Source: Desulfovibrio psychrotolerans
GTDB lineage: Bacteria > Desulfobacterota > Desulfovibrionia > Desulfovibrionales > Desulfovibrionaceae
Reading direction: 5' to 3'
DNA: 64,000 bases
Assembly: GCF_013340305.1 (NCBI RefSeq)
Contig: NZ_BLVP01000008.1
Span: 607,408 to 671,407 of the forward strand
Under the pieces are notes generated by a model. That model searched no databases. It worked only from the letters and a program-made list of their open reading frames with translations, and was not told where the DNA came from. The translations under genes and the position numbers were made by a program. Positions 19,222 through 22,881 of the stretch are shown here, in pieces (position 1 is the first letter of the stretch; each line of letters begins with the position of its first letter).

Positions 19222-19333
19222 TCTTGCCTTGCGCTGTGCTACGGTGTGGATGCTGCTCAAAGGTGAGCGGCGGGCGCGCAGATGTCAACCCGCAAGTGCC
19301 GGAACAGAGCGCAGTTTGAGAGGAGGTGCAGCC

Positions 19334-20026
19334 ATGACGCATGATAAGATTCCAGTAACGCCTTGCCAGCCAGGCATACCCGGCCTTTCAGCCGTTTCCG
19401 CCGCACCCGGTTCTGCCTTGGATGTGGCTGCTGCCGCACGGCTGCTGCGCGAGGGGGCACTGGTCTGCTACCCCACGGAGACCTTTTTCGCGGTGGGATG
19501 CTCAGCCTTTGACGTGTTTGCCATCAATCAGATTTTTGCCGTCAAGAAACGGGCGGAAGCCATGCCCCTGCCGGTGATTATCGGGGATATGGAGCAACTC
19601 GCCATGCTTACCGATACCGGTTCGCGTACGGTGGAAGCCCTTGCAAAGGCCTTCTGGCCGGGGCCGCTTTCTGTGCTTGTAACCGCATCCGTGCGGGTGC
19701 CCGCCGTGCTCACGGGAGAATCCGGCCGGGTTGCCGTGCGGCTCACCCCGCATCCCGTGGCGCGGGAACTGTGCCGTGAGGTGTGCGGACCGCTTGTTTC
19801 CACAAGTGCCAACATAAGCGGGCGAGCTCCGGTTACGGCTGCGCAGTCGCTTGATCCCGAACTGGTGGCGGCAACAGGGGGCGTGCTGGACATGCCTCCG
19901 GCCCCGGCGGGCGGAAAGGCATCCACCCTTGTGGAAATTGCAGGGCAGAAGACGGTGCGCATCGTGCGCCATGGTGCTGTGGACGAAGAGGCCCTGCGCG
20001 CGGCAGGGTTTGCCGTGGTGATTTGA
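19334..20026 (+). CDS. tsaC: L-threonylcarbamoyladenylate synthase (YrdC/TsaC)
   Basis: Makes threonylcarbamoyl-AMP from Thr, bicarbonate and ATP for the t6A37 modification of ANN-decoding tRNAs. 230 residues from the ATG at 19334, which has a perfect AGGAGGTG five bases upstream; this rules out the longer frame starting at 19202. YrdC-fold motifs: ALVCYPTETFFAVGCSAFD, VKKRAEAMPLPVII, WPGPLSVLV, VAVRLTPHPVA and PLVSTSANISGRAP. Length fits TsaC rather than the longer Sua5. Divergent from rlmH. Confidence 0.93.
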   Translation: MTHDKIPVTPCQPGIPGLSAVSAAPGSALDVAAAARLLREGALVCYPTETFFAVGCSAFDVFAINQIFAVKKRAEAMPLPVIIGDMEQLAMLTDTGSRTVEALAKAFWPGPLSVLVTASVRVPAVLTGESGRVAVRLTPHPVARELCREVCGPLVSTSANISGRAPVTAAQSLDPELVAATGGVLDMPPAPAGGKASTLVEIAGQKTVRIVRHGAVDEEALRAAGFAVVI

Positions 20027-20105: not shown

Positions 20106-20424
20106 GGGGTCTGATTTTTTGTACCTTCCCGTTGGTTATGGTGCAGCGTGCGGGAACGGTACCCTTGTCCGGCTTCCGAAAGAGCGCGCGGAGGGCAGGG
20201 GGACTGCAGGTTTGCTGCGTTTCCGGGGCATTGTCGCGCGCGTTTTGGTTCAAGAAGTTGAATCCGCAGGCATTGGGGCACAGGCGTTTCTTTCCGGCGG
20301 TTCAGTTTTTTACACGGGCGGTACGCGTCAAAGCGCGGCATTGCACGATGGGCTTTGTGGTAAAGTTTTTTTATTGCGAGTAGATAGGTGCGAGATGAAA
20401 AGGGCGGATGTGTGCGGTGGGAGG

Positions 20425-20440
20425 TTGGCACAATTTCTGC
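20425..20440 (+). promoter_or_regulatory. sigma54 (RpoN) -24/-12 promoter
   Basis: TTGGCACAATTTCTGC: the invariant GG (20427-20428) and GC (20439-20440) are exactly 10 bases apart, within a TTGGCAC-N5-TGC context that closely follows the TTGGCACg-N4-TTGCa consensus. Transcription would start near 20451-20452. Confidence 0.65.
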
Positions 20441-20450
20441 TTAAAGAGAT

Positions 20451-20512
20451 ATACCTTCTTTCTTTTGCAAAAAACGGCCGTACGGGGTGGCACCCGATAC
20501 GGCCGTTTTTTT
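20451..20512 (+). ncRNA. candidate ~60-nt small RNA (or attenuator leader) from the sigma54 promoter
   Basis: The predicted transcript begins about 12 bases after the -12 element. It has an unpaired pyrimidine-rich 5' segment (CCTTCTTTCTTTTGC, able to pair with purine-rich Shine-Dalgarno sequences) and ends in a strong terminator: 12-bp stem AAAACGGCCGTA / TACGGCCGTTTT with an inner CGGG/CCCG pairing and a T run to 20512. No open frame fits inside. The alternative is that this is an attenuator in the leader of the Nudix gene 58 bases further on. Confidence 0.45.
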
Positions 20513-20569: not shown

Positions 20570-21025
20570 ATGCAGCACTCCATTCCCTGCCCCGCCTGCG
20601 GGGCGGCAGTTCCCACATGGCGTAATCCCGTTCCCACCGTGGATATCCTGGTTCATGAACCGAGGCTGGGTGTTCTGCTCATTGAGCGGAAGAACCCGCC
20701 TTTGGGCTGGGCGCTGCCCGGAGGATTTGTGGACTACGGCGAGACGGTGGAGCACGCAGCCGTTCGTGAGGCGCGGGAGGAGACGGGACTGGATGTGCGG
20801 CTTACAGGATTGCTTGGCGTGTATTCCGACCCTGCCCGTGATGCCCGGTTGCACACCATAAGTTGTGTGTTTACGGCTGAGGCGGAGGACCTTTCGCGGT
20901 TGCGCGCGGGGGACGACGCAGGGCGGGCGAGGTTTTTCCCGCTCTCCGACCTGCCGGGGCTTTGTTTTGACCATGCCCGCATTCTCCGGGATTTTGAGCG
21001 GAGCCTGAACAGGCTGAAGCGGTAA
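20570..21025 (+). CDS. Nudix hydrolase with N-terminal zinc-ribbon-like motif
   Basis: Hydrolyses a nucleoside diphosphate linked to another moiety; the substrate is not predictable. 151 residues from the ATG at 20570 (GAGGA five bases upstream). The Nudix box G-x5-E-x7-REUxEExGU is complete: [20 protein letters not shown] continuing ETGL. The N-terminus [14 protein letters not shown] carries a CPAC pair, suggesting half of a zinc ribbon, as in ADP-ribose- or NADH-type Nudix relatives. A terminator and a second hairpin lie between it and the sigma54 promoter, so it may have a separate promoter or be controlled by attenuation. Confidence 0.9.
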
Positions 21026-21429: not shown

Positions 21430-22881
21430 ATGAGACCACAGGTTGTCTTTGTCACATCGGAAATTTATCCCTTTTCCAAGACGGGCGGGCTTGGAGATGT
21501 TCTGGGGGCACTGCCGCTTACCCTGCACCGCATGGGTATACGAACGGCCGTTGTCACGCCGTTTTACGGCAGGCTGGGTTCGGCACAGTTTGGCGTGCAT
21601 CTGGCATGGTCCGACTGCCATGTGGGGTATCCGTGGGGGCCCATAACAGCCGACATTTTTCAGGCGAATTTTCACGGCATGCCGGTGTACTTTGTTCACC
21701 GCAGCGAGTTTTTCGACCGGCGGTTCTATTACAACGACCACAAGGGCGATTACTTTGATAATGCCGAACGCTTTATCTTTTTCAACCGCGCGGTCATGGA
21801 ATTTTTGAAGCGGCTCGGACCCGCGCCGCATATCCTGCATGCCCATGACTGGCAGGCATCGCTGGTTCCCGCCTATCTGCACTACTGGCGGCAGCACGAT
21901 CCGTTCTGGCAGGATACGCGCAGTGTCATGACCATTCACAATCTGGCCTTTCAAGGGCGTTTTTCTTCGCGTCTGTTTGAAAACTGCGGATTGCCGCCGC
22001 AAGCGTGGTCGCCCGAGGGGGTGGAGTTTTACGGAGACTTCAATTTCCTGAAGGGCGGCATTGCCTGTGCGGACAAGATAACAACGGTTTCGCCGAGCTA
22101 CGCATCGGAAATCCTTACCGATGAATTCGGCTGCGGATTGCAGGGAGTTTTGCGGGCGCGGCGGCACAAGCTGCACGGCATTCTGAACGGGGCGGACTAT
22201 TCCATATGGAATCCCGGCGACAACAAGTTTATTTCATGCAACTACGGAGCCAACGCCCTGAAGGGCAAGCGCAGTTGCAAGGCGGACCTCATCAGCGAAC
22301 TGCGTCTGAACCCCGCGCTGAAGGAAAGACCTCTGCTCGGGTTCATCGGGCGGCTGCGGCGGCAGAAGGGTGTGGACCTGCTCATAGATATTCTGCCCCG
22401 GCTGATGCAGCAGGATGTGGGCGTGGTGGTGCTGGGCGAGGGGAATCTGGAAAAGGAAGCCCGTCTGCTGGCCATGATGGAAGATTACCCGGGACGTCTT
22501 GCCACGCTGGTGAGCTATACCGAGGATTTGGCCCACCGCATTCAGGCCGGGTGCGACATATTTCTCATGCCTTCCACCTACGAACCGTGCGGGCTTACAC
22601 AGATGTACGCGCTGCGGTTCGGCACGCCCCCGGTGGCAACCGCTGTGGGCGGCCTTAAGGACACCATCATCCCATGGCCGGACAAGCAGGCCACGGGGTT
22701 CATCTTCGAGCAGCCCACACCACAGGCTTTTTACGAGGCGATCATGCTTGCCGTTTCCGTCTGGCGTACCATGCCGGACGCATGGCAGGCCATGGTGCGC
22801 AGGGCCATGCAGCAGGCGTTCACATGGGAGCACTCAGGAGCCGAATACATAGAACTCTACCGCGAATTGGGCATGCAGTAG
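21430..22881 (+). CDS. glgA: glycogen synthase (ADP-glucose type, GT5)
   Basis: Elongates alpha-1,4-glucan from ADP-glucose. 483 residues from the ATG at 21430, which follows GGAGGAGAA by eight bases; an ATG 24 bases upstream lies within that region and is less likely. Family motifs: the nucleotide-sugar loop [14 protein letters not shown] near residue 16, [50 protein letters not shown] and the E-x7-E type [18 protein letters not shown]. Followed 22 bases later by glgB, with which it forms a glycogen operon. No glgC or glgP is in view. Confidence 0.95.

Follow-up and report, generated by a model that had tools for sequence, protein, structure and literature searches.

A candidate sigma54-dependent small RNA family of Desulfovibrionales with a 5' end antisense to porin Shine-Dalgarno regions

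What is made from a sigma54 promoter that is followed almost at once by a transcription terminator? Such an arrangement exists at positions 20425 to 20512 of a 64,000-nucleotide stretch of the Desulfovibrio psychrotolerans genome (contig NZ_BLVP01000008.1), called the window here at its full length. The gene order is sua5/yrdC (19292-20026, forward strand; PF01300, 8e-46), the element, a Nudix hydrolase gene (20570-21025, forward strand; PF00293, 3e-25), and glgA, which is followed by a gene that we take to be glgB from the likeness of its translation. Two answers were proposed in the original prediction: an activator-dependent small RNA (sRNA) with an unpaired segment that could pair with Shine-Dalgarno (SD) sequences, or an attenuator for the Nudix gene. 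Comparative data (conservation of the promoter, enhancer, and seed) favor the sRNA, and the segment can now be assigned a probable target, outer-membrane porin mRNAs, to whose SD region the 5' end is antisense.

The element and its relatives

The putative sigma54 promoter, TTGGCACAATTTCTGC, is located at 20425-20440 on the forward strand and is assigned from sequence and conservation. Its GG and GC doublets (-24/-12) are 10 bases apart as first read, although the spacer is N6 (TTGGCAC-N6-TGC) and not N5. The predicted RNA of about 60 nt (20453-20512, forward strand; from the fold and model R1, described below) starts at a conserved A, which is 13 nt past the C of TGC, is found in 114 of the 123 promoter-bearing copies of the element, and sits two bases off the start near 20451 that had been proposed. 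From 20453 the sequence reads ACCTTCTTTCTTTTGC, followed by the hairpin and a T run ending at 20512. The unpaired 5' part, ACCUUCUUUCUUUUGC (20453-20468, forward strand), is the predicted seed. The remainder (20469-20512, forward strand) is a Rho-independent terminator, consisting of a hairpin at 20469-20511, with the apical part GGGGUGGCACCC, and the T run. The hairpin, originally described as a perfect one of 12 bp, is stronger than that, with a stem of 18 bp and a one-base bulge (fold of 20451-20512). The fold energy of -29.6 kcal/mol (z = -5.7) was equalled by none of 200 shuffled sequences, and R1 scores 20453-20512 at 67.4 bits. In the 15-sequence seed alignment, 13 of the 15 predicted pairs have changed on both sides with the pairing kept. 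A simple terminator scan of the window did not list the hairpin at 20469-20511. In Rfam covariance scans of the window and of six loci, only tRNA reaches the gathering score; the weak matches below threshold are to cis-regulatory motifs, miRNAs, and an Enterococcus RNA, and include no sRNA family.

The promoter pattern alone is near chance. TGGCACN6TGC occurs 78 times in the window's genome, barely above the 68 occurrences of the reversed pattern, so that the site alone is unconvincing and comparison had to decide. On the minus strand the left arm of the hairpin (20469-20512) is A-rich, and the hairpin could therefore also terminate minus-strand transcription. A near-background pattern and a hairpin that is terminator-like on both strands would both be in keeping with a chance promoter match beside an ordinary bidirectional terminator between yrdC and the Nudix gene. 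However, promoter spacing, enhancer motif, and seed are conserved in six families, and we count this reading as refuted, with almost no probability left to it.

A search at the DNA level found relatives in four of 59 genomes, the window's own included, and loci retrieved through the Nudix gene contained the same element. R1 is an RNA-only covariance model built from 15 aligned sequences with the promoter excluded; its seed sequences were picked with the promoter in view and are not independent. R1 matches are found in at least 93 of 149 genomes and at least 33 of 44 genera of the window's taxonomic family (E <= 0.1). Across the order, 90 of 150 genomes and 27 of 36 genera have matches (E <= 0.01), and all six families sampled are represented. 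In a sample of the phylum, matches are limited to five of 198: the window's own genome, one member of the same family, and three outside the order, which have neither GG-N10-GC nor enhancer sites. Note that R1 gives a lower bound, as true-looking copies found otherwise score weakly. The copy on contig C43 of the window's genome has 25.8 bits, and those of G072 and G001 have 24.2 and 15.1 bits, while the G009 copy is unmatched; in the family search, G072 and G009 have R1 matches only near E 0.08.

The promoter was scored in the 75 nt before the RNA in 129 fetched R1 matches. TGG[CT]-N8-TGC is present in 123 of them, compared with 111 of 4249 control windows on the same strand and 76 of 4249 on the opposite strand (2-3%). 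At the corresponding position of the opposite strand, none of the 129 has it. Among other spacings, N5-N7 and N10-N12 are found in none and N9 in one. The distance from TGC to CTTC is 14-15 nt in 108 of the 123 copies. The six matches without a sigma54 element may be false. When 13 seed-like matches of 147 are removed, the element is still present in 127 of 134 (92 genomes). The -24/-12 element is kept in the close relatives G005 and G006 as well as at loci of the five other families of the order, where 17 loci include 16 with TGGY-N8-TGC and 17 with GG-N10-GC. It is this comparative evidence, and not the promoter pattern alone, that makes the site significant, and judged from it, 20425-20512 is one copy of a predicted sRNA family of the whole order. 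Two to four copies are present in 32 of 79 genomes among the fetched copies, and G006 has five including those found with the enhancer profile. The window's genome has at least three: the window's copy, C7:266390-266459, and one near C43:208147.

The genomic position of these copies bears on the second of the two readings, a cis-acting attenuator or leader that would control the downstream Nudix gene (and glgA). In the window, 57 nt separate the T run from the Nudix ATG at 20570. Among the 123 promoter-bearing copies (79 genomes), 63 are within 1.5 kb upstream of a Nudix gene and 12 elsewhere in the yrdC-glg region, and the yrdC-Nudix-glg region is the commonest home (75 of 123). While all this agrees with an attenuator, the other 48 copies are at other loci, the distance between sRNA and Nudix gene can be as short as 56 nt or exceed 1000 nt, and in several genomes tandem copies exist in between. 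Because of the variable position and the tandem copies, the attenuator is rejected as extremely unlikely. The small hairpin noticed before the Nudix SD adds nothing to it, as it lacks significance (z = -1.05; 29 of 200 shuffled sequences fold as well). As a target in trans the Nudix gene fares no better: the duplex between an sRNA copy and its start has only -11.3 kcal/mol, against a background mean of -13.3, and it stands here, as does sua5/yrdC, as context. The glgA start was also considered and dropped; its duplex (-19.1 kcal/mol) is not outstanding, the tested window being displaced by 6 nt from the probable ATG at 21430. Another home in which the sRNA recurs is next to an AMP-binding enzyme gene (L264, which is the C7 copy of the window's genome, L228, and loci of genus g50). 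This home is found in nine genomes by sequence clustering, in which the clusters mix shadow ORFs, and PF00501 is found there in the window's genome.

Upstream palindromes and the candidate activator

It had been suggested that an upstream enhancer site be looked for, and two were found. Upstream of the promoters of the family there is a palindrome, GGTWCAA-N4-TTGWACC. In the window, predicted activator site 1, GGTTCAAGAAGTTGAATC, an imperfect palindrome, is located at 20247-20264 (forward strand, matrix score 15.4) and precedes the promoter TGG by 179 bp. Predicted site 2, GGTTCAGTTTTTTACACG, is located at 20299-20316 (forward strand, 14.8), which is 52 bp or about five helical turns from site 1, so that the two are at -179 and -127 relative to the promoter. 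A third, weaker palindrome of this kind is seen at 20108-20125 (score 12.8), 318 bp before the promoter.

The training set of the matrix consisted of upstream regions of the sRNA family, the window's copy included, and the following counts are in-sample. Within the 300 bp upstream, 139 of 141 loci have the motif with a score above 8 bits, as compared with four of 141 shuffled ones, and 132 loci have two or more sites. In 41 of these 132 loci the best two sites are separated by 40-43 bp and in 72 by 51-54 bp, while the remaining 19 are spaced differently. The two main classes (113 of 132) correspond to about four and five helical turns, as expected of sites for an enhancer-binding protein (EBP), which the paired and phased palindromes would be. 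Downstream flanks score as well in 48 of 141 loci; 15 of these are the next tandem copy, one is an unlisted copy, and the rest are single sites. A single palindrome is seen about 114-125 nt after the sRNA in L196, L197, L200, L205, L207, and L212, and at about +120 in genus g25. No promoter was found behind the downstream single palindromes, and they are perhaps a further, downstream enhancer.

As an out-of-sample test, profile R2, made from the enhancer pair alone, was applied to 22 genomes. It matches at E <= 1 in 21 of them, the one with no match being G039, a genome that bears the sRNA. In the window's genome R2 has six matches at three places, all of which are sRNA genes, including the previously unseen copy on C43. 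R2 also led to sRNA copies in G005, G006, G001, G009, G173, and G072. Among the weak matches inspected (E > 0.1), one in G173:C3 is a single palindrome with no sigma54 match behind it.

An activator gene is not generally found beside the sRNA. An EBP gene is present in the flanks (up to 3 kb) of only one of the 123 copies. The open frame at this locus (L220, G076:C2:184511-190569) has 475 aa, contains GAFTGA, and on visual inspection includes a receiver domain, which makes it a candidate regulator. An autoregulated activator was likewise considered. The window's genome has 32 EBP genes with PF00158, and in the 30 with flanks, taken as 1.5 kb around the domain with part of the promoters lying outside, no convincing site was found. 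Two of the genes have a single palindrome (scores 12.6 and 15.1), neither convincingly positioned.

Porin ribosome-binding sites as predicted targets

One further R2 match, G173:C1:912401 (E 0.2), has no sRNA and lies upstream of outer-membrane porin genes. These porins belong to DESULF_POR1 (NF033939) and have the ribosome-binding sites (RBSs) GCAAAAGGAAGGAUU and GCAAAAGAAGGAAGGAUU, the second of which is fully complementary to the sRNA consensus UCCUUCCUUCUUUUGC. In a survey of 24 genomes, DESULF_POR1 was found in 23 with 78 matches; G045 has the sRNA and no DESULF_POR1 match. Of 77 of these porins, 13 were left out because the profile match does not begin at position 1 and the start codon is uncertain. 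The 64 porins used include 58 in the 21 genomes with an sRNA sequence.

The longest Watson-Crick run with the sRNA of the same genome is at least 10 in 34 of these 58 porins, and 38 have either such a run or one of at least 14 with G-U pairs. Counted by genome, 20 of the 21 have one or more porin RBSs whose Watson-Crick run reaches at least 10; the run in the 21st, G061, is 8, or 16 with G-U. A run of 10 is not found in 24 of the 58 porins (e.g., the run is 6 in G001:C31 and 4 in G009:C5:126625). Five of the six porins of G072 are unmatched, and the 78th porin (G148) has a run of 5. Genus g25 has a seed altered in its second half, which leaves at most 10-11 nt of pairing.

The window's seed (20453-20468) pairs at 16 of 16 positions, two of them G-U, with the RBS of the porin at C8:132130-133734 (minus strand) in the same genome. 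Among the three sRNA copies the best duplex with this RBS has -27.7 kcal/mol, a value that is equalled in none of 1003 SD-start windows taken from the full 64 kb. The duplex with the genome's C7 porin has -22.7 kcal/mol, equalled or beaten by nine of the 1003. An extended complement of the seed is found before an ATG at three places in the genome, namely the two porins and a 71-aa ORF. The extended pattern is found at four places in G005 and three in G006, which are the own porin, a binding-protein gene, and ORFs of 4-24 codons. The binding-protein genes (L404:748-1503 in G005 and L405:748-1503 in G006, both minus strand) encode amino-acid-type ABC substrate-binding proteins and have the RBS AAAGGAAGAAGG, which, judged by eye, can pair with the seed of the sRNA with a single G-U (12-nt match). 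They are a possible second target in these two genomes.

Where the seed differs between genera, the porin RBS differs with it. G001 and G009 have the deviant seed CUUCUUAAAUUCACUAA, and their best porins pair with it over 17 and 15 nt; in G001 the partner is UUAGUGAAUUUAAGAAG and the 17 nt include non-SD bases. The best cognate runs elsewhere are 16 nt in G043, 15 in G005, 14 in G006, G035, and G039, and 13 in G060 and G091. In the window's genome, copies 2 and 3 have CUUUUAC and the porins GUAAAAG. G072 provides a fair test, as its porin RBS GCAAAAGAAAGGAAGG was seen before the sRNA was located; the seed, ACCUUCCUUUCUUUUGC, pairs with it perfectly over 16 nt. For 13 chosen genomes, the mean run is 13.1 with cognate and 9.3 with permuted partners, and the mean duplex energy is -27.0 versus -21.0 kcal/mol. 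None of 20,000 partner permutations was as good in run or in energy, the genomes being not phylogenetically independent. Some non-cognate pairs are as good or better because the seeds are often similar to one another and rich in pyrimidines. The porins compared come from four families (f1, f2, f5, and f6), and the compensatory changes between genera imply that seed and porin SD have probably co-evolved there.

Could the RNA be directed to SD sequences in general? As a sigma54-dependent decoy resembling the 3' end of 16S rRNA, it would damp many mRNAs, and porins would stand out merely by their strong SDs. The seed core in families f2, f3, f4, and f5 is CUUCCUCCUUUUGC, close to the 16S 3' end, which we take to be CACCUCCUUUCU. 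Purine-rich starts of other genes score too (the best of the 1003 background windows has -24.4 kcal/mol), and the 12-nt match of the amino-acid-binding protein gene in G005 and G006 points the same way. However, a generic decoy has no need of genus-specific complementarity beyond the SD core, such as the 17 nt of G001 or GUAAAAG/CUUUUAC in the window's genome, where moreover the extended pattern before an ATG is confined to the two porins and one ORF mentioned above. We consider a broad decoy improbable, with a small share of the probability remaining to it, and pairing with porin mRNAs the better account of the seed.

A proposed circuit and its known counterparts

The reading that we prefer, with a probability of roughly 0.86, is a sigma54-driven trans-acting antisense RNA that lowers porin synthesis by pairing with the porin SD. 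A sigma54 activator would bind the two helically phased palindromes 110-180 bp upstream and open the -24/-12 promoter. The RNA of about 60 nt made from it would have a single-stranded 5' end of 16 nt and a stable terminator as its 3' part. Its 5' end would pair with the SD region of DESULF_POR1 mRNAs and block ribosome binding, and less porin would be made when the activator is on. The promoter, enhancer motif, hairpin, family-wide conservation, and complementarity with compensatory changes were computed from the genomes. From these we infer transcription from the promoter at 20425-20440, together with a signal and an activator to set it off. Repression by the pairing would be expected because the pairing covers the porin SD. 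PF17209 (Hfq) was found in none of 39 genomes, in a search whose control was positive in five of 14 known genomes. With no Hfq found, the RNA would have to pair by virtue of the length and near-perfect match of its duplex, or with the help of another chaperone.

The palindrome is found at the porin promoters as well. With a matrix trained on sRNA loci only, a palindrome scoring above 11 is present within 300 nt upstream of 37 of the 64 porins, where 1.5 are expected from shuffles. For none of these 37 was a sigma54 element found nearby. Of 60 porin-upstream sites, 40 start 81-160 nt before the ATG. In upstream regions such as L330 (C8 porin), L312, and L298, the palindromes are sometimes paired, 17 nt apart, and by eye they are often just upstream of TTGCMA, a -35-like hexamer. 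The excess over shuffles suggests an extension of the antisense reading, in which the same regulator would also bind porin promoters and the RNA would be the second arm of a coherent feed-forward loop. On the other hand, the porin motif has a higher AT content and may instead be an UP element or the site of another factor, its position cannot tell activation from repression, and 27 of the 64 porins, like the 78th porin (G148), have no palindrome. The extension is tentative and its odds are somewhat below even. The same holds for the fuller circuit that may be drawn for the order, Hfq-free, in which one activator would drive one to five copies of the porin-antisense RNA and bind porin promoters, stopping transcription and translation together; we give it a little less than an even chance.

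Control of porins by sRNAs is known mainly from Hfq-bearing bacteria. MicF, MicC, RybB, and OmrA/B are short trans-acting RNAs antisense to the initiation regions of porin mRNAs, and MicF shares its regulator, OmpR, with its porin in the feed-forward loop OmpR-MicF-OmpF. The predicted RNA resembles all of them in being short and trans-acting with a seed antisense to a porin translation-initiation region, and resembles MicF-OmpR in that the palindromes are also present at porin promoters. Binding of one protein at both sRNA and porin promoters would make the circuit a feed-forward loop of the OmpR-MicF-OmpF type. Unlike the enterobacterial porin sRNAs, it appears to depend on sigma54 and enhancers and not on sigma70 or sigmaE, no Hfq was found in the 39 genomes, and the pairing is unbroken over up to 17 nt. 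There is no Rfam match to MicF, MicC, RybB, or OmrA, and no sequence relation to them was found. Qrr of Vibrio, GlmY, and CrcZ are sigma54-dependent sRNAs, and Qrr exists in several copies per genome. They share with the present family the sigma54 promoter and an activator with upstream sites, as well as several copies in the case of Qrr, but they differ in targets and in sequence, compared here by Rfam scans alone.

The nearest porin sRNA that we found is NcS25 of Burkholderia cenocepacia, a conserved sRNA that is reported to repress an outer-membrane porin, of whose SD 7 nt are perfectly complementary to it in all genera having NcS25 (PMC10117139). The same paper reports that no sigma54-like motif is present upstream of ncS25, such a motif being found at the porin instead, and that Burkholderia has two Hfq homologues and encodes ncS25 next to a porin gene (PMC10117139). 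NcS25 shares the porin SD complementarity with the present family and differs in having no sigma54 site. Within the same order, four sigma54-controlled ncRNAs including Dv_sRNA2 are reported in D. vulgaris Hildenborough by Kazakov 2015, with individual activators assigned (PMC4641369). Dv_sRNA2 is listed as of unknown function in Rajeev 2011 (PMC3333781). Two of the ncRNAs are said to be downstream of an activator gene, and the activator gene of a third is divergent from the sigma54 promoter (PMC4641369, PMC3333781). They resemble the present family in belonging to the same order and in their predicted sigma54 promoters, and differ in the activator gene, which is beside only one of 123 copies here. 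The D. vulgaris ncRNAs could include members of the window's sRNA family. In the main text of an ncRNA prediction for O. alaskensis G20 there is no mention of porin, sigma54, RpoN, or Nudix (PMC11124144). A literature search, with most subscription papers outside its coverage, turned up nothing on porin sRNAs driven by sigma54 in Desulfovibrionales, nor any published sulfate-reducer sRNA whose target has support from comparative genomics.

The present family would give sulfate reducers such an sRNA. Since seed and target co-vary across genera and four families, the pairing is directly testable by point mutations, and the family would offer a natural test of trans-acting antisense without Hfq. 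The recurrence of the arrangement across Desulfovibrionales suggests a long-kept way to turn pores down. Its logic is most likely that of MicF and RybB, in which a sigma54 activator would induce the RNA and the RNA would block porin translation, and an independent route to it under sigma54, in an order in which the Hfq search came up empty, would amount to convergence on that wiring.
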